Source: Lysinibacillus sp. FSL W8-0992 (GTDB taxonomy: Bacteria; Bacillota; Bacilli; Bacillales_A; Planococcaceae). Taken from it: a stretch of DNA of 64,000 nucleotides. Every line of letters starts with the position of its first letter. Position 1 is the first letter of the stretch. Shown piece after piece: positions 12,410-44,776 of the stretch. Under the pieces are notes generated by a model. The model did no database searches, was not told the origin of the DNA, and saw nothing but the letters and a program-made list of their open reading frames with translations. The stretch covers positions 1,054,001 to 1,118,000 of the forward strand of contig NZ_JBBOZQ010000001.1 in assembly GCF_038008685.1 (NCBI RefSeq), given 5' to 3'. Both the position numbers and the translations under genes were made by a program.

Positions 12410-12450
12410 AAAAAGAATCTACCACATTATTTTTGTGGTAGATCCTTTTT
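12410..12450. terminator. Bidirectional terminator yciC / ypbQ
   Basis: ATCTACCACA / TGTGGTAGAT stem with A run before and T run after; the ypbQ stop codon sits in its loop. Confidence 0.88.
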
Positions 12451-12969
12451 AAATACATGATTATAGTTTGTCGCATCACGTAATGCTTTTTCCTCAATAG
12501 GAATCCGTACTGAAAGCATTGTAATGTTTAAGAGCGTAAAGCAAAATGCTGTGAAATAAGCTTGGAACATAATTGGTAGTAGAAGAATCTCCAAGCTAAC
12601 AACGGCATAATTCGGGTGTCGCATAAATGTATAAGGGCCTTTACGTACAACTTTTGCGCCAGGTAAAATCAGTATTTTCGTATTCCAAAATGGTCCTAAT
12701 GAACGGATACACCAAATACGCAAAGCTTGCACCATAAGGAATAATAAGAAAAATAACGGGAATAAGGACGATGGACCATTTTTATTTGAAACTACTTCAA
12801 CAATTAAAAATAGAAAAAAGCTAACATGCATAGCAACCATATAGGGATAATGTGAAGCGCCGACTTCATAGGCTCCTTTTGCAAACATCCATTTTTCATG
12901 ACGTTTTGCTATTAAAACCTCTGCTAATCTTTGTAGAATAACAAGAATTAAAATAATGTAAAAAAGCAT
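12427..12969 (-). CDS. ypbQ: Isoprenylcysteine-methyltransferase-family protein YpbQ (BpsB)
   Basis: 180-residue membrane methyltransferase with about five hydrophobic helices and the ICMT-type C-terminal motif GPYTFMRHPNY that binds S-adenosylmethionine. In B. subtilis the bpsA-ypbQ pair makes alkylpyrones and O-methylates them. ATG 12969 with GGAGGGA upstream and only one base from the bpsA stop, so translation is coupled. An upstream in-frame start inside bpsA is less likely. Confidence 0.9.
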   Translation of the reverse strand: MLFYIILILVILQRLAEVLIAKRHEKWMFAKGAYEVGASHYPYMVAMHVSFFLFLIVEVVSNKNGPSSLFPLFFLLFLMVQALRIWCIRSLGPFWNTKILILPGAKVVRKGPYTFMRHPNYAVVSLEILLLPIMFQAYFTAFCFTLLNITMLSVRIPIEEKALRDATNYNHVFKKDLPQK

Positions 12970-12970
12970 A

Positions 12971-14053
12971 TTACTCCCTCCATTTAAGTAATACAGCCTC
13001 TGCACAGAAGCCTGGACCGAGGGCGACTAGCAACCCAATATCATCTATTTGCCCTTCGTTTAACATAAACTGCTCTAGTACATACAAAACAGTAGGAGAA
13101 GACATATTACCGTGTTGACGTAATATTTCCCGAGAAATGTCGGTTTTTTGTTCAGCAAGATATAACGTATCCTCATACGCTTTTAACACTTTTTTTCCCC
13201 CTGGATGTGCAATAAAATGATCAAGCTGCTCACTGTAAAGTTGTTGTTCAACTAAAAATTGTTCAATGAAAGGACCAAGCCAATTTGTAATAATGGATGG
13301 AATACTTTTTTGGAAAACGACATGAAGGCCATTGTTTTTTATATTCCAGCCCATTACATTTTCTGAATCGGGCATCCACTTAGAACCAGTTGAAACAATT
13401 GAAGGAATTGGTTTTTTTGTTGGAATTGCAACATCGTCTCCACAAACGAGTATGCAGGCAGCGCCGTCAGCGAATAGGGAGGCGCCAATTAAATTACTTT
13501 TAGAAAGATCGTTTTGCTGAAAAGTTAGGCTACAAAGTTCGACACATACAACAAGTACCTTTTCTTGAGGATGCGCTTTGCAATAATCATAAGCACGACT
13601 AACTCCAGCAGCTCCCCCTGCACAGCCTAACCCCCACAATGGTATGCGCTTTAACCTATCGGAAAAAGGCAGTTGATTCATGATACGAGCATCTATGCTT
13701 GGTGTAGATATGCCCGTACTACTCACGAAAATAATAGCATCAATATCTTTAGGGGAAATAGGTGCTTCTAAAAAAGATTCATTTTGTAAACAGGCTTGAA
13801 TGACTTCAACGCTATATTGTGTTGCTAGCTCTATATACAGATTGTTACGTTCTTCGAAAGTATGCTCACTACGGTGCCACTCAGCGGGTACACAGAAATG
13901 ACGAGTATCGATGCCACCATTATCAAATACTTTTAAATAACGCTCTAACTTTGGAATTTTTTCATAAAAGAGCTCCTTTGTTAACGCCTCTGCGTTCGCC
14001 TGTTGCAATGTGTAAGGTGGTTGATATGTGCTGATAGAAATAATTTTTGACAA
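12971..14053 (-). CDS. bpsA: Type III polyketide synthase (alkylpyrone synthase BpsA)
   Basis: 360-residue chalcone-synthase-like enzyme expected to condense fatty acyl-CoA with malonyl-CoA into alkylpyrones. Catalytic triad visible: Cys144 (GLGCAGGAAG), His283 (AHPGGKK), Asn316 (QHGNMSS). TTG 14053 is chosen because AAGGAGA (complement of 14061-14067) lies 7 bases upstream and the resulting N-terminus MSKIISISTYQPPY matches family length; the frame is open farther upstream without a good site. Cotranscribed with ypbQ. Confidence 0.93.
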   Translation of the reverse strand: MSKIISISTYQPPYTLQQANAEALTKELFYEKIPKLERYLKVFDNGGIDTRHFCVPAEWHRSEHTFEERNNLYIELATQYSVEVIQACLQNESFLEAPISPKDIDAIIFVSSTGISTPSIDARIMNQLPFSDRLKRIPLWGLGCAGGAAGVSRAYDYCKAHPQEKVLVVCVELCSLTFQQNDLSKSNLIGASLFADGAACILVCGDDVAIPTKKPIPSIVSTGSKWMPDSENVMGWNIKNNGLHVVFQKSIPSIITNWLGPFIEQFLVEQQLYSEQLDHFIAHPGGKKVLKAYEDTLYLAEQKTDISREILRQHGNMSSPTVLYVLEQFMLNEGQIDDIGLLVALGPGFCAEAVLLKWRE

Positions 14054-14131
14054 TTCAACATCTCCTTCGCAAATAGTGGTCTTGTACATTGTATGCAGAT
14101 AGGAAGGGCGTACATGCTTCAATAAATTTAT

Positions 14132-14160
14132 TTGACAATTATGAACAATTTAGATATATT
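14132..14160 (+). promoter_or_regulatory. SigA promoter of rsgA leader
   Basis: TTGACA at 14132-14137, 17-base spacer, TATATT at 14155-14160. The expected transcript starts near 14167. Confidence 0.85.
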
Positions 14161-14176
14161 GGTAACATCTAAATTG
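14146..14176. promoter_or_regulatory. Perfect 10-bp inverted repeat over -10/+1 (operator candidate)
   Basis: CAATTTAGAT (14146-14155) and ATCTAAATTG (14167-14176) with an 11-base spacer; arm centres are 21 bp apart. It covers the -10 box and start point of the rsgA leader promoter. Binding protein unknown. Confidence 0.65.
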
Positions 14177-14193
14177 GAAGTAGGTGATGTGAC

Positions 14194-14268
14194 ATGATGA
14201 ATAGATCCGTTTTTAACGAACTGCAATTCGGTTTGTTCAATTTCACACGCCTAAAATATGCGATTTGA
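14194..14268 (+). CDS. 24-residue leader peptide of rsgA attenuator
   Basis: Short frame with tandem ATG codons (14194, 14197), AGGTGAT at 14182-14188 as ribosome site, and a TGA stop at 14266-14268. It starts MMNRSVFNELQ and is rich in Phe and Leu. The antiterminator segment lies within its codons 9-13. Role inferred: ribosome movement or stalling on this frame decides whether the downstream terminator forms. Confidence 0.65.
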   Translation: MMNRSVFNELQFGLFNFTRLKYAI

Positions 14269-14338
14269 CCTTGCCCGTAGAGTTAACGACTACTATGTGA
14301 CAAAGGCTATTTGTGTATTCCCTTAAACGTGCCTGTGA

Positions 14339-14377
14339 AACCTTGTAACTGCCGAATTGCAGTTGCAAGGTTTTTTT
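14339..14377 (+). terminator. Attenuator terminator before rsgA
   Basis: AACCTTGTAACTGC pairs with GCAGTTGCAAGGTT around CGAATT, followed by seven T. It ends 57 bases before the rsgA start. Confidence 0.92.
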
Positions 14378-14433
14378 ATGCTTGTTTCGCACTTAGAGGC
14401 GTAATTGATAGACACATTTAGGAGGAATAACAA

Positions 14434-15504
14434 TTGAAATTAACAACATTAGGGTTTTCAACTTATTTTGAAGAGCAAGTAACTGCGTTTAAAGAGGAAT
14501 CAAAGTTAGCGAACTGTGTACCTGCCCGAGTTACTTTGGAGCATAAGCATTCATATCGTGTACTAGCTGAAGAAGGTGAATGGCTAGCTACAGTCGCTGG
14601 ACATTTTGCATATACATCGGTAGCAAGAGAGGACTATCCAGCAGTTGGAGATTGGGTATTAGTCGAGAAAATGGCGGGGGAAGAAAAGGCGATAATTCAT
14701 AAATTATTTAACCGAAAGTCCGTATTTTCTCGTAAGGTTGCAGGACAGGAAATAAAGGAACAAATTGTAGCATCAAATGTTGATATTGTGCTACTTGTAA
14801 TGAGCTTAAATGCAGATTTTAATATTCGTCGTTTAGAGCGCTATTTAGTAGCCGCTTGGGATTCCGGTGCGAAGCCAGTAATTGTACTGACAAAGGCTGA
14901 TTTATGTGAAGATATTTCGAGCATGGTACGGGAAGTCGAGCTTGTAGCTTTTGGTGTGGATATTTTTGTAACTAGTGCACGATCAGGCGAAGGCATAACA
15001 GCTATTCAGAACCTCTTTACAGAAGGGGTGACAGGTGCACTGCTCGGTTCATCGGGTGCAGGGAAATCCACTTTAATGAATGCATTAAGTGGAGAAGAGC
15101 TTATGAAAGTTTCAGGTATTCGGGAGGATGATGCCAAAGGGCGCCATACGACTACACACCGAGAATTAATTGTATTGCCAAGTGGTGGCTGCTTAATCGA
15201 TACCCCAGGAATGCGTGAGTTGCAATTATGGGATCAAAGTGAAAGTCTATCTTCTAGTTTCCGTGATATTGAAGAATTTGCAGCCGCATGTCGTTACAGA
15301 GATTGTACGCATCATATGGAGCCACACTGTGCGGTGCAACAAGCTATTAAAGATGGAGCACTTGAACAATCACGTTTGCAAAGCTATTTCAAGTTGCAAA
15401 AGGAGCTTGCTTTTATTGAGCGAAAAACGAATATGCAGGCAAAGCTGAATGAGCAACGCAAATGGAAGCAAATTGCGAAAGGCATGAAGAAGGGCAAAAA
15501 ATAG
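14434..15504 (+). CDS. rsgA: Ribosome small-subunit-dependent GTPase A (RsgA), long paralogue
   Basis: 356-residue circularly permuted GTPase that assists 30S maturation. Order seen: N-terminal OB fold, G4 TKAD (153-156), G1 GSSGAGKST (205-213), G3 DTPG (256-259), and a zinc site Cys286, Cys291, His293, Cys299. It is about 60 residues longer than the B. subtilis housekeeping RsgA, with a basic Lys-rich tail (KGMKKGKK), so it is probably a second copy. TTG 14434 with AGGAGGA. It stands alone behind an attenuator, implying inducible expression. Confidence 0.92.
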   Translation: MKLTTLGFSTYFEEQVTAFKEESKLANCVPARVTLEHKHSYRVLAEEGEWLATVAGHFAYTSVAREDYPAVGDWVLVEKMAGEEKAIIHKLFNRKSVFSRKVAGQEIKEQIVASNVDIVLLVMSLNADFNIRRLERYLVAAWDSGAKPVIVLTKADLCEDISSMVREVELVAFGVDIFVTSARSGEGITAIQNLFTEGVTGALLGSSGAGKSTLMNALSGEELMKVSGIREDDAKGRHTTTHRELIVLPSGGCLIDTPGMRELQLWDQSESLSSSFRDIEEFAAACRYRDCTHHMEPHCAVQQAIKDGALEQSRLQSYFKLQKELAFIERKTNMQAKLNEQRKWKQIAKGMKKGKK

Positions 15505-15588: not shown

Positions 15589-16014
15589 ATGGCTATACAA
15601 AATATTAACCATTTTTTATTTTCAGTGTCTAGTCTAGAGCAATCAATAGCATTTTACCAAAATGTTTTTGATGCCAAGTTATTAGTGCAAGGGAGAAGCA
15701 CTGCTTATTTCGATTTAAATGGGCTGTGGCTTGCACTAAATGAGGAAGCGGATATTCCACGTAACGAAATACATCGCTCCTATACACATATTGCTTTTTC
15801 TATCGATGAAGAAGATTTTGAGAAAATGTATGACAAGCTTGTGCATTATAAGGTTAATATTTTAGAGGGCAGACAAAGAGATGAACGAGATAAACAGTCC
15901 ATTTATTTTACCGATCCAGATGGTCATAAATTTGAGTTCCATACAGGTACATTACAGGATCGCCTAGAGTATTATAAAAACGAAAAAACGCATATGGAAT
16001 TTTTCAATGATTAA
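15589..16014 (+). CDS. fosB: Metallothiol (bacillithiol) transferase FosB, fosfomycin resistance
   Basis: 141-residue VOC-fold enzyme that opens the fosfomycin epoxide with bacillithiol. Metal ligands His8, His67 (SYTHIAF) and Glu116 (HKFEF) are in place, and [32 protein letters not shown] match B. subtilis FosB closely. ATG with AAAGGAG. A HAD phosphatase follows after 22 bases. Confidence 0.96.
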
Positions 16015-16753: not shown

Positions 16754-17046
16754 AAACTATAACAAAGCGTTGAAAAGGAAAAGTAAATTGGACAAGCATT
16801 TAATAGAGAGCCTCTGTTGGTGGAAATGAGGTAAATGAACCCTTTTGAAAATGACCTTTGAGCTTCGTACCGAAAGCATTTTTGTGAGTAGATTACGACG
16901 AGATGGGCACTCGTTACAACAGCGGCAGTATCTCTTATATGAATGCAAGACGTACTGATTGAGGCAAATAGTGTGAGCTATTTGTAAATATAGGTGGTAA
17001 CACGGGTATACTCGTCCTAATCAGTCATGATTAGGGCGTTTTTTTT
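16754..17046 (+). ncRNA. T-box riboswitch, tRNA-Met specific
   Basis: Stem I begins with AGAGAGCC; the specifier loop reads GGTAA-ATG-AACCC with ATG (Met) at 16835-16837; the T-box AGGTGGTAACACGG is at 16992-17005, whose TGGT can pair with an uncharged ACCA end; the terminator CGTCCTAATCA / TGATTAGGGCG plus T run is at 17013-17046. Uncharged tRNA-Met should allow readthrough into metG. Confidence 0.95.
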
Positions 17047-17179: not shown

Positions 17180-18814
17180 ATGACAATAGTAATTGGAGGA
17201 GCTTGGCCATATGCCAATGGCTCATTGCATTTAGGGCATATTGCCGCATTATTACCAGGTGATATTTTGGCTAGATATTACCGACAAAAAGGTGACAAAG
17301 TATTGTATGTTTCAGGTAGTGATTGTAATGGGACACCAATATCGATTCGAGCTGCACAGGAAAATACGACGACAAGTGCGATTGCAGACCGGTATCATCA
17401 AGAATTTACGCAATGTTTTCATGATTTAGGATTTACTTACGATTTATATACGAGAACGGATGCTCAGCATCACCATGAAGCTGTACAGACAATTTTTTTA
17501 CAGCTGATGGCAAATAATTATTTATACAAAAAGAAAATTGAGCAGGCTTATTGTGAAACGGACAAACAGTTTTTACCTGACCGCTTTGTGGAAGGTGTTT
17601 GTCCAAATTGTGGGGCAAAGGCACGTGGAGATCAGTGCGATAATTGTTCGAAAATTTTAGATCCACTTGAATTAATCGACAAGCGTTGTAAAATCTGTGG
17701 CAATGAGCCTGTTATTCGAGAAACTGAGCATTTTTATTTTACTTTTAGTCAATTTCAAGGAAGGCTAGAAACTTTTGTAGCTGAAGCAAAGGCGGAAAAG
17801 CGCTGGCGAGATAATGCAATAGGCTTGACCGAACGTTACTTAGCAGAGGGCGTTCCTGACCGTGCTGTTACAAGAGATTTGCCAAACGGTATTGATGTAC
17901 CAGTACCGGGCTTTGAAGGGAAGAAAATTTATGTGTGGATCGAAGCCGTTGCAGGTTATTTAACAGCAAGTATGGAATGGGCAAAACAACATAATATTGC
18001 GATTGAGGATTTATGGAATGAAGAAACAATTTCTTATTATGTGCATGGCAAGGATAACATTCCATTCCATACAGTTATTTGGCCAGCGATATTGATGGGT
18101 ATTGGTGCGAAATCATTACCAACACATATTGTCTCCAATGAATATTTGACTTTAGAAAAACGAAAATTATCAACTAGCCTAAATTGGGCGGTTTGGGTGC
18201 CATATATTTTAAGTCGTTATGATGCAGATTCTATTCGTTATTTTTTAACAACAAATGCACCTGAAAATCGTGATACGGATTTTTCTTGGCGAGAATTTAT
18301 TTATAGTCATAATGGAGAATTGCTAGGAGCTTACGGCAATTTTGTCAATCGGACGTTGAAATTTATAGAAAAATCATTTGATAGCCAAGTGCCACAGGTC
18401 GATGTAGATGGGGCTGTAAGGAAACAGACGATACAGTTGTTTAGTGATGTTGGTGTGGCGATTGAAGCGGGACATTTTAAGCAAGCGTTAGAAGAAATTT
18501 TTGCTTACATCCGTGCGGCCAATCGATATTTTGACGAGCAGCAACCGTGGTTACAGGTGAAGGAGAATATAGCGGATTGTCATGAAACGCTTGCAACGTG
18601 CGTCTACATGATTGCAAATTTAGGACAAGTGTTGCAGCCATTTTTACCGTTCTCCACAGAGAAAATTCGAGGCATGTTAGGCATAACAGAATTGATGTGG
18701 TATGAGCAAGTGGAGCTACCGAAAAGCATTGGCGAAGTGACACCACTATTTGAACGACTTGATGTGGGGCTAATTGAAGAAGAATACCAGAAGTTAGTTA
18801 ATGACAGTCACTAG
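17180..18814 (+). CDS. metG: Methionyl-tRNA synthetase, MetRS2-type, short form
   Basis: Charges tRNA-Met. 544 residues: class I HIGH motif as HLGH (17-20), double zinc knuckle (CPNC, CDNC, CKIC at about 145-175), KMSKS variant KLSTS (329-333), anticodon-binding helical domain after 390. The C-terminal tRNA-binding domain of the usual B. subtilis MetS is absent. This architecture resembles MetRS2, the second, inhibitor-tolerant enzyme of B. anthracis and S. pneumoniae, so another metS probably exists elsewhere. Controlled by the T-box upstream. Its stop is directly followed by a repeat array. Confidence 0.93.
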
Positions 18815-18834: not shown

Positions 18835-19187
18835 ATTCAAATTGTGTGAGTGCCTGTCACTTTTTACTGCTCCGGGTGGTCATTTATCGTGAGCACAAAG
18901 TAAGCCGCAACTCTCGCTAGTGCGCGGATTGTTGCGGCTTACATTTTGTATGTTCCCGCAGGCGTCGCCCCCTGCGCTTAAATCAACTAGTAGCGTATTC
19001 AAATTGTGTGAGTGCCTGTCACTTTTTACTGCTCCGGGTGGTCGTTTATCGTGAGCACAAAGTAAGCCGCAACTCTCGCTAATGCACGGATTGTTGCGTC
19101 TTATATTTTGTATGTTCCCGCAGGCGTCGACCCTGCGCTTTAAATCAACTAGTAGCGTATTCAAATTGTGTGAGTGCCTGTCACTCG
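18835..19187. repeat. 162-bp tandem array of palindromic element with GTGCCTGTCAC boxes
   Basis: ATTCAAATTGTGTGAGTGCC starts at 18835, 18997 and 19159, exactly 162 bases apart, giving two full units and a third boundary. Each unit carries an inverted repeat (GTAAGCCGCAAC / GTTGCGGCTTAC at 18900-18942, decayed in unit 2). Fills the metG-leuA gap; frames open through it are not genes. Confidence 0.9.
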
Positions 19188-19210
19188 CCCTAAGTTCCAA
19201 TTAACGAAAC

Positions 19211-19281: not shown

Positions 19282-20853
19282 TTAGTTCATAACAGGCGTT
19301 AATTTCGCCACAACAATGCTGTTGATTGCATTAATGTATGCAAGCGCACTAGCTTTTAAAATATCTGTATCTGCAGCTTTTGCGATATATTTTTCGCCCT
19401 CATGCTCAATCGTTATTTTAACTTTACCAAGTGCTTCCTTGCCACGTGATACGCTGTTAATATTATACTCTACTAGCTTCACATCAATTTTTACAATATC
19501 TGCAATGGCAGAATACAATGCATCAATTGGGCCTGAGCCAACAGCACTTGCTTTCAATACTTCTTCACCTTTGCGAATTTTTACACTAGCGGAAGGGAAG
19601 CTTGCGTTGCTGACGACTTGTAAATCTTCAATGTCAAAAAATTGCTCGCTATAATGAGTAGCATTGGCGTGATTTGCGTCATGCTTTTCATAATAACTTT
19701 CTACAATCACATATAAGTCATGGTCATAAACTTCTTTTTTCGCATCAGCTAATTTGAGGAAACCATCGAAAATGCCTTCAAATTCCTCAGTAGAAAGATT
19801 AGAAAAGCCTAACTTTTCAAGTGCATTTTTTACGGCATGGCGTCCTGAACGAGCTGTTAAGACAAGTTCCATATCATCTAGACCTACATCTTCTGGATGA
19901 ACGATTTCGTAGGCATCGCGAGATTTAAGTAGACCATCTTGATGAATTCCTGAAGAGTGTGCAAATGCATTGTCTCCAGTAATGGCTTTGTTTACTTGTA
20001 CGTCTAAGCCCATAAAGCTAGAAACAAGGCGTGAAGTGTTCATGATTTCTCTTGTATTAATGCGCGTCTCTGCATTATAAACAGAACTACGTGTTTTTAG
20101 TGCCATCACGACTTCTTCTAGTGCAGCATTTCCGGCACGTTCCCCAATGCCGTTAATTGTACATTCCACTTTGTCTGCACCGTTTTTAATGGCTGCAAGT
20201 GTGTTAGCTGTTGCCATACCAAGGTCATTGTGACAGTGTACACTTAATAAAACACTGTCGTTTAAGTTTTTCATACGGTCATTAAGCTTATAAATCATAG
20301 CGCCAAATTCCTCTGGTTCAGCGAAACCTACAGTGTCAGGCACATTTATCATTGTTGCGCCGGCCTTCATAACGGCTTCAATTGTTTTCCATAGGTACTC
20401 AAAATCTGAGCGGGAGGCATCTTCTGTTGAATATTGCACTTGTGGTAAAAGAGTTTTTGCATATTTCACAGCATCTACGCCAATTTGTAGTATTTGGTCT
20501 TTAGATTTACTAAATTTCTTTTCAACATGTATATCAGAAGTGCCAAGCACCATATGAATCATTGGGTTTTCTGCATATTTTACAGCGTTATAAACGGAAT
20601 CAATATCAGCTTTTACTGCTCGTGCTAAAGCTGTAATCATAATGTCGTTCGTATTACCAACCTTTTGTGCCACAGCTTTTACCGCATCAAATTCACCTTG
20701 TGAAGAAGCCGGGAAACCAGCTTCGATAATATCGACGCCTAATTTTTTGAGTTGCTGTGCAATCTCTACTTTTTCGTATAAGTTCAGTTTTGCTCCCGGC
20801 ACTTGTTCGCCATCACGTAAAGTTGTATCAAACACCCAAATTTTTCTTCCCAT
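19282..20853 (-). CDS. leuA: 2-isopropylmalate synthase
   Basis: First committed step of leucine synthesis: acetyl-CoA plus 2-oxoisovalerate to 2-isopropylmalate. 523 residues; catalytic TIM barrel with FDTTLRDGEQ near the N-terminus, SVHCHNDLG metal motif, GIGERAGNA, and a C-terminal LeuA dimer/allosteric domain. ATG 20853 has GGAG nine bases upstream; the TTG at 20859 is too close to it. Unlike B. subtilis, leuA stands alone here with no ilv or leuBCD gene following, behind its own leucine T-box. Confidence 0.94.
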   Translation of the reverse strand: MGRKIWVFDTTLRDGEQVPGAKLNLYEKVEIAQQLKKLGVDIIEAGFPASSQGEFDAVKAVAQKVGNTNDIMITALARAVKADIDSVYNAVKYAENPMIHMVLGTSDIHVEKKFSKSKDQILQIGVDAVKYAKTLLPQVQYSTEDASRSDFEYLWKTIEAVMKAGATMINVPDTVGFAEPEEFGAMIYKLNDRMKNLNDSVLLSVHCHNDLGMATANTLAAIKNGADKVECTINGIGERAGNAALEEVVMALKTRSSVYNAETRINTREIMNTSRLVSSFMGLDVQVNKAITGDNAFAHSSGIHQDGLLKSRDAYEIVHPEDVGLDDMELVLTARSGRHAVKNALEKLGFSNLSTEEFEGIFDGFLKLADAKKEVYDHDLYVIVESYYEKHDANHANATHYSEQFFDIEDLQVVSNASFPSASVKIRKGEEVLKASAVGSGPIDALYSAIADIVKIDVKLVEYNINSVSRGKEALGKVKITIEHEGEKYIAKAADTDILKASALAYINAINSIVVAKLTPVMN

Positions 20854-20883
20854 TTTCAAACACTCCTTTTGTTGTAATAAAAT

Positions 20884-21214
20884 AAAAAAAACCCGCCTCT
20901 ATATAAAAATATAGAGACGAGTTATTTGCTCGCGGTACCACTCTAATTGACCTTCCCTTTAAAGAAAAAGCCCCCTTATCGACAGCTATCACTGTCTATC
21001 CTAATAACGGTGGAAACCGACATCCCTTACTTTTTAAACGGCATTCAACTCACTGCTTTAGGAGCAGGAGAATTGTGCTGACTCGTTTTGGTTCAGGGAG
21101 TAGCTCATGGATGAGTTCAAAATGTGTGCCTACCGATTTACACCAACCATCGGCTCTCTACAAGTACACGGGCATTTTTACTATTTCCAATCTTTGCTTA
21201 ACAATGTGTTGTTG
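20884..21214 (-). ncRNA. T-box riboswitch, tRNA-Leu specific
   Basis: Read on the minus strand: AGAGAGCC of stem I, specifier segment GAA-CTC-ATCC with Leu codon CTC followed by A, T-box AGAGTGGTACCGCGAGC (complement of 20928-20944), and terminator CTCGTCTCTATAT.../ATATAGAGGCGGG plus T run (20884-20922). Leucine shortage should raise leuA transcription. Confidence 0.94.
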
Positions 21215-44335: not shown

Positions 44336-44499
44336 CTAGCTATTTTAATCAGAATTTTTAGGCTGGAATAACAAATAGCGGATCACTATGTAGAAATAGT
44401 GCTAAGTTTTGTATAAATATATTCGAATATTCCACAATCTCGCAACTACTCTTTCGAATCAATATATGATAAACTGCTAATCAAGTGAATAATTCTTGC

Positions 44500-44690
44500 A
44501 GAATAATGGTGCTAACTTTAGCATAATCGGGAATTCGGTGTAAAACCGAAGCTGTTTCCGCAACTGTAAGTACAAGAATCATAAAAAATGCCACTGTCGA
44601 AAAGGGGAAGACCCAAGATGGGAAGGTTTTATGATATCGCTACTGCATTGGGTAGTGAGCTGTACGAGCCAGGAGACCGACCTTTATTTA
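44500..44690 (+). ncRNA. Cobalamin riboswitch
   Basis: Conserved elements in order: GGGAATTCGGTGTAAAACCG, CCGCAACTGTAA, GCCACTG, GGGAAG and GAGCCAGGAGACC. An expression platform with terminator follows at 44777. Cobalamin binding should switch off the two downstream genes. Confidence 0.95.
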
Positions 44691-44776
44691 ATGTATAAAA
44701 ACTCTTCGGAAGCTAGGAGGATATACGGCAAATACATAGGCAATGTCGCGTGAGGCGGCACTATATATGCTATTTT

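Follow-up and report, generated by a model that had tools for sequence, protein, structure and literature searches.

The question raised by this locus is how the expression of a second RsgA-type GTPase gene is governed by the long leader in front of it, and whether that leader would respond to the state of the ribosomes. The window is the whole stretch of 64,000 nucleotides that was analysed, taken from Lysinibacillus sp. FSL W8-0992, and an earlier note on it had proposed a ribosome-mediated attenuator before an RsgA paralogue. This proposal is supported, by sequence and comparison only, and a probability of roughly 0.75 is given to the reading in which positions 14132-14377 form a ribosome-mediated transcription attenuator of the rsgA paralogue, which would be turned on by ribosomes standing at about codons 1-4 of a small leader frame. 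The component parts, their conservation and a pairing rebuilt in other genera are found in the sequences compared, and the stall positions come from a folding model. The elements concerned are the following.

14132-14160, + strand: sigma-A-type promoter, TTGACA-17-TATATT, with 11 of 12 consensus matches; TTGACA present in 30 of 30 aligned orthologues
14181-14253, + strand: P1 hairpin of the minimum-energy fold, the proposed anti-antiterminator, in which the Shine-Dalgarno and start region of the leader pairs with codons 17-20
14182-14186, + strand: AGGTG, the Shine-Dalgarno of the leader frame, which is at the same time the base of P1; its columns A16-G20 do not vary across 30 leaders
14194-14268, + strand: leader frame MMNRSVFNELQFGLFNFTRLKYAI, 24 codons, stop at 14266-14268, found in all 30 orthologues of the genus
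14219-14254, + strand: proposed antiterminator 5' strand, codons 9-20, containing the matches 14219-14231 (13 nt) and 14241-14247 (7 nt)
14255-14319, + strand: P2 hairpin, from the leader stop to the terminator, predicted in both states
14323-14364, + strand: proposed antiterminator 3' strand, made of the terminator 5' arm, the loop and the start of the 3' arm
14337-14377, + strand: intrinsic terminator of 16 pairs (14337-14374) followed by a T-run; 91.2% of cells paired in 30 leaders
14420-14425, + strand: Shine-Dalgarno AGGAGG of the rsgA paralogue
14434-15504, + strand: rsgA paralogue, 356 aa, TTG start; PF03193 and TIGR00157 above cut-off

The near-consensus promoter, the 24-codon frame with its own ribosome site, the strong terminator and two distant pairings had all been named in the earlier note, and each was located where it had been placed. 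Codons 9-13 of the frame and the terminator 3' arm are perfect reverse complements (14219-14231 with 14352-14364, 13/13), and a nested second helix joins 14241-14247 to 14334-14340 (7/7). Among perfect helices whose arms lie 60 nt or more apart, the longest reaches 13 bp, compared with a maximum of 11 in 300 dinucleotide shuffles, none of which (0/300) matched it. Folding of 14167-14377, a check proposed with the original claim, gave -61.1 kcal/mol with a z of -4.61, which was equalled by 0 of 200 shuffles. What had been overlooked is the hairpin P1, and the length of the antiterminator had been understated, as it possibly extends over 14219-14254 with 14323-14364 and covers the full terminator 5' arm and loop. 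Since P1 and the antiterminator use a common strand, they would be mutually exclusive, which gives the leader a three-state design of anti-antiterminator, antiterminator and terminator; mutual exclusion of the three was found by computation.

RsgA acts on the 30S subunit. The protein encoded behind this leader carries the RsgA_GTPase domain PF03193 at 182.4 bits against a curated cut-off of 30 and matches TIGR00157 at 182 against 100, and it is not the canonical housekeeping RsgA of the genome, which is encoded at another locus and matches PF03193 better (208 bits versus about 182-184 for the paralogue). The two proteins are 35% identical over residues 113-334, whereas the paralogue is 44-57% identical to proteins from 9 of 24 further families sampled in the class; these identities point to an old lineage of its own and not to a recent duplication. 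A family-wide search at E 1e-60 recovered the paralogue from 121 of 151 genomes, with 17 of 19 genera represented. Its AlphaFold model, with a mean pLDDT of 59.6, was too poor to be used in a fold comparison.

Several neighbours were recorded in the window. Divergent from the leader promoter, a type III polyketide synthase-like gene and then an isoprenylcysteine-methyltransferase-like gene occupy 12427-14122 on the - strand. Directly 3' of the paralogue lies a FosM-type fosfomycin resistance gene (15589-16014, + strand; 260.5 bits, cut-off 255), which likewise adjoins the paralogue on the L. fusiformis plasmid pMGMM7; the copy on that plasmid (L138 4880-5000) retains the terminator 3' arm, and neither a leader frame nor the leader 5' part was found in the 300 bases upstream of it. 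Two plasmid records named Stenotrophomonas rhizophila, CP031730 and CP065518, hold a Lysinibacillus-like paralogue with 83% identity, perhaps on account of a mixed culture. Further downstream in the window, T-box leaders precede a methionyl-tRNA synthetase gene (T-box 16761-17022, gene 17180-18814, both + strand) and a 2-isopropylmalate synthase-like gene, which bears this annotation on pMGMM7, where the gene order is the same (T-box 20910-21203, gene 19282-20859, both - strand), and a cobalamin riboswitch is located at 44490-44699 on the + strand. The frame at 18880-19200 on the - strand contains a duplicated segment, with SDRHSHNLNTLLVDL occurring twice, and probably represents an intergenic repeat, not a gene.

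Within the genus, 32 genomes were compared (the source genome and 31 others), 30 of which carry the paralogue, and promoter, leader frame and terminator accompany it in all 30. Alignment of these 30 leaders, 28 of them distinct, showed 97.4% of cells paired in P1, where 18 of 28 pairs are invariant, 95.3% in the antiterminator helix, and 93.5% in the lower part of P2 against 67.5% in its variable upper part; when partners were shifted by 1-3 columns, the paired share of whole structures fell to 28-46%. The comparison of upstream regions called for in the earlier note therefore bore out the short frame and the pairing, and it did not bear out a conserved peptide or strong covariation. A double change occurs in one antiterminator pair and in no P1 pair, three sequences having codon 11 altered from CAA to CAT (Gln to His) together with a matching change in the terminator loop. 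Most double changes fall in P2, a hairpin common to both states; as many doubly changed pairs as observed arise in 27 and in 202 of 500 shuffles, and two of five covariation measures are equalled in 27-439 of 500. Codon alternatives within the genus comprise 31 amino-acid-changing and 9 silent ones, spread evenly over codon positions, and nothing in them points to conservation of the peptide itself; in the sequences compared, it is the RNA pairing and the open frame that appear to be retained.

Within the genus, leader and gene also go together. A covariance model of the leader 5' half (89 positions, trained on 20 of the 30 leaders and applied with strict filters) returned exactly one copy in each of the 30 paralogue-bearing genomes, 20 of which had supplied the training leaders, and no match in the 2 same-genus genomes that have no paralogue; over 81 genomes, one further match was obtained, in genus 42. 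The exact leader motif was met in 17 contigs of a named collection, all of them Lysinibacillus, with the paralogue 139-269 nt downstream in 14, the other 3 loci ending before it.

Outside Lysinibacillus, 60 upstream regions from 15 genera, taken from 106 matching genomes, were searched automatically, and a leader frame of 20-29 codons with its ribosome site and a terminator behind it was recovered in 56 of them. Among the four loci missed by the script, L063 and L065 have frame and terminator by eye, L097 has them far apart, and L087 is the fourth. The same script, applied to 21 canonical rsgA regions as a control, gave 2 positives, which are the same frame in two genomes and lie inside a preceding long open frame ending 11 nt before rsgA. 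The peptides mostly differ between genera, with some residues shared by neighbouring ones, and in most genera a different stretch matches the leader's own terminator, as illustrated by the rebuilt pairings CACGAATCAGTAA/TTGCTGATTCGTG in genus 5, CAATCCGG/CCGGATTG in genus 4 and GCGATTTGG/CCAAATCGC in genus 35; the longest helix begins at codons 8-13 in 42 of 56 other-genus leaders.

The strongest evidence for a real antiterminator, as judged from sequence comparison, is the ranking of cognate duplexes against non-cognate ones. The cognate antiterminator duplex was the best of all in 40 of 86 leaders and in the top 5% in 62; the corresponding numbers were 29 and 48 of 56 outside the genus, and 11 and only 14 of 30 within it. 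The median rank fraction per genus was at most 0.183 in all 16 genera, genera 36 and 37 pairing poorly (0.183 and 0.167). For P1 the same test was weaker (best in 16 of 86, top 5% in 28), perhaps because the ribosome-site strand is much alike across genera, and in Lysinibacillus P1 alone is not cognate-specific, with a median rank fraction of 0.607. More distant paralogues (L043, L044, L047, L048, L050, L053 and L136) have small leader frames as well; some of these leaders may hide the ribosome site of the gene instead, for which the computed pairing probabilities are mixed (0.03-0.67). One of them, in a Listeria monocytogenes record (L136 2399-2515), has an RsgA paralogue with the small leader frame MAIVKMENLIINTGVFYL; no terminator was seen by eye between frame and gene, and this leader is possibly a translation attenuator.

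Where a ribosome would have to stand was examined in 86 leaders with a footprint mask, applied at every codon, from 14 nt upstream to 17 nt downstream of the first base of the P-site codon, the transcript being folded before the last part of the terminator emerges. The main scan assumes that P1 persists once formed, and under this assumption the antiterminator was modelled in 88, 87, 77 and 49% of leaders with the P-site at codons 1, 2, 3 and 4 (87, 79, 74 and 36% when balanced by genus). Under the same assumption the share was 5-14% for codons 5-16 and about one half for codons 18-20. With no ribosome the antiterminator was obtained in 5% (genus-balanced 9%), provided that P1, formed first, stays. 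At equilibrium, that is, when the persistence rule was lifted, the antiterminator appeared in 76% of leaders free of ribosomes, and stalls at codons 21-25 gave it in 69-93%. The proposed OFF state would therefore be kinetic and P1 must form first, which is feasible, as transcription completes P1 70-110 nt ahead of the strand that competes with it. When chimeras carrying the gap and terminator of another genus served as a control, 39 cognates gave 0.87 and 234 chimeras 0.33 at codon 1 with at least 15 pairs, chimeric leaders also switching in part.

The switch may accordingly be pictured as follows. The strong promoter would keep producing leader RNA, and as long as the leader frame is freely translated or untranslated, P1 would close over the ribosome-binding site and codons 17-20, mask the antiterminator strand and let the terminator form, so that transcription ends at about 14377. 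With a ribosome stalled on the first codons (about 1-4), P1 could not close; the free codons 9-20 could then pair with the emerging terminator 5' arm and loop, and RNA polymerase would read into rsgA. On this model, what the leader seems to sense is a ribosome halted right at the beginning of its frame. The natural trigger, we infer, would be an antibiotic blocking early elongation, of the pleuromutilin, lincosamide, tetracycline or phenicol type, or else some other defect early in translation, and the induced RsgA paralogue might help to keep 30S subunits or translation working. That the peptide appears unimportant fits drugs which act just after initiation with little sequence context, a behaviour described, in the portion of PMC10201436 consulted, for the short frames of ABC-F leaders. 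Codon 2 was also considered, since phenicol or oxazolidinone stalling would suit Ala, Thr or Ser there (excerpts of PMC8987054), and one of these is encoded in 44 of 56 leaders outside the genus and in 11 of 16 genera, compared with 29% among 38 genes of the window chosen by our own rule. This argument is not relied on, because the window leader has Met, the genera are related and the codons lie within P1.

Three other explanations would account for part of these observations. The stall might lie deep in the frame, a drug together with the nascent peptide arresting the ribosome, for instance a macrolide at an R-L-K in codons 19-21, and thereby freeing codons 9-13. Macrolide +X+ leader peptides are defined by the motif R/K-X-R/K; here R-L-K occupies codons 19-21 in 24 of 30 Lysinibacillus leaders, any R/K-X-R/K is present in 26 of 30 against 9.1 expected from residue shuffles, 3 of the 5 genus 4 leaders have R-L-R at codons 18-20, and in the model a ribosome stalled at codons 18-20 leaves the antiterminator strand unpaired with P1 in about half of the leaders. 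Outside the genus, however, the motif occurs in 12 of 56 leaders against 8.5 expected, at varied positions, while within it R19-L20 is set by the P1 strand CGCCUA in related leaders that are not independent. An RLR motif belongs to the hflXr leader too (excerpts of PMC6310831). The evenly spread codon alternatives weigh against an arrest peptide and make a start-proximal stall sensor likelier, so the deep stall is considered unlikely, and the R-L-K of the 24 leaders leaves room for a second, macrolide-type trigger.

The combination of leader frame, terminator and antiterminator is equally the design of trp- and his-type attenuators, which sense charged tRNA under amino-acid starvation, but the leader peptides of the genus and of other genera contain no run of any codon or of one amino acid, the peptide varies between genera and the regulated gene is not metabolic, which makes this the least probable of the explanations weighed. 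The strong terminator about 57 nt upstream of the paralogue, together with a promoter-like match (9/12) at 14405-14434, would also suit a stand-alone small RNA with its own terminator and a separate rsgA promoter. That match overlaps the rsgA start codon, and a scan of 601 bases, as made here, should yield 2.1 such matches by chance; moreover, a small RNA leaves unexplained both the leader/terminator pairing rebuilt beside the gene in other genera and the absence of the RNA from genomes devoid of the gene, and it is regarded as very improbable. The attenuator sensing ribosomes at its first codons is thus preferred.

As for known relatives, a search of Rfam with the window leader gave no family above threshold, and 11 loci that contain relatives gave only matches unrelated to the leaders, all in the Listeria locus. 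Below its gathering score of 60, RF02452 (ncr1575) matched the window leader over its full length with 26.0 bits (E 0.065). This family is taken to be the vmlR leader, from the MIN frame in its consensus, and by our reading of the Rfam consensus the 3' arm of its hairpin would be the antiterminator strand. An RF02452 leader lies above threshold in the same genome, 22 kb upstream of the leader studied here (L159 1501-1810; G000:C1:1045671-1045980), with 126 bits and a MIN frame, before a ribosome-protection ABC-F gene; the organism would hence possess the vmlR switch plus a separate switch of like wiring and other target.

The published systems are compared on the basis of excerpts of their sources. 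The vmlR leader of Bacillus subtilis shares with the present one a small frame in an anti-antiterminator hairpin and an intrinsic terminator, whereas the frame here has 24 codons instead of 3, another sequence and an RsgA paralogue instead of an ABC-F protein as target (PMC9226507). vmlR is switched on by lincomycin or retapamulin, through ribosomes that these drugs hold on the frame, and it is also induced in a cshA deletion strain whose ribosome assembly is defective (PMC9226507); in view of the latter, an assembly GTPase makes sense as a target. The rli80 leader of hflXr (lmo0762) in Listeria is a ribosome-dependent transcription attenuator of the kind proposed here, with small frame, antiterminator and anti-antiterminator, and its target is likewise a spare copy of a ribosome-associated GTPase, HflXr, which gives drug resistance (PMC6310831). 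It differs in its 14-codon frame with the RLR motif, and HflX is a 50S-associated ribosome splitter (PMC6310831 for HflX), whereas RsgA is a 30S factor. With this precedent, the attenuation of a ribosome-GTPase paralogue is not a fully new link, and the tie between ribosome trouble and RsgA, which the earlier note had thought undescribed, is partly described in Streptomyces coelicolor, where RsgA/EngC proteins SCO6149 and SCO5211 are named among the WblC-activated genes and paralogues under antibiotic (PMC7157823). An RsgA paralogue is among those raised under a ribosome-targeting drug in that system, which works by transcription-factor control, no leader attenuator being found in the excerpts of PMC7157823. 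toiL of E. coli has a small frame at whose start codon tetracycline stalls ribosomes, and is induced by retapamulin as well, but it acts via translation and Rho on topAI (PMC12121999). Reports of a leader peptide, attenuation or term-seq on rsgA were not found in the open-licence literature, which does not imply their absence in print, and the terms engC, yloQ and GTPase are absent from the main text of PMC2965389.

A wider reading, held tentatively and at somewhat less than even odds, would make the paralogue a dedicated drug-inducible ribosome factor, the 30S counterpart of HflXr, under a peptide-independent first-codon stall sensor across this family of Bacilli, with a related leader in Listeria, and an unrecognised intrinsic antibiotic-tolerance gene. 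If the attenuator reading is right, the paralogue would be a widespread candidate stress or tolerance gene, and its leaders would form a natural series with changing peptide and rebuilt RNA logic, of use in telling the effect of stall position from that of peptide sequence. Compared with these systems, the locus is best read as an attenuator of the vmlR and hflXr design, known in kind, with an RsgA paralogue as its new target, through which a family of ribosome-assembly GTPases would join ABC-F, HflXr and Erm under ribosome-sensing attenuators.
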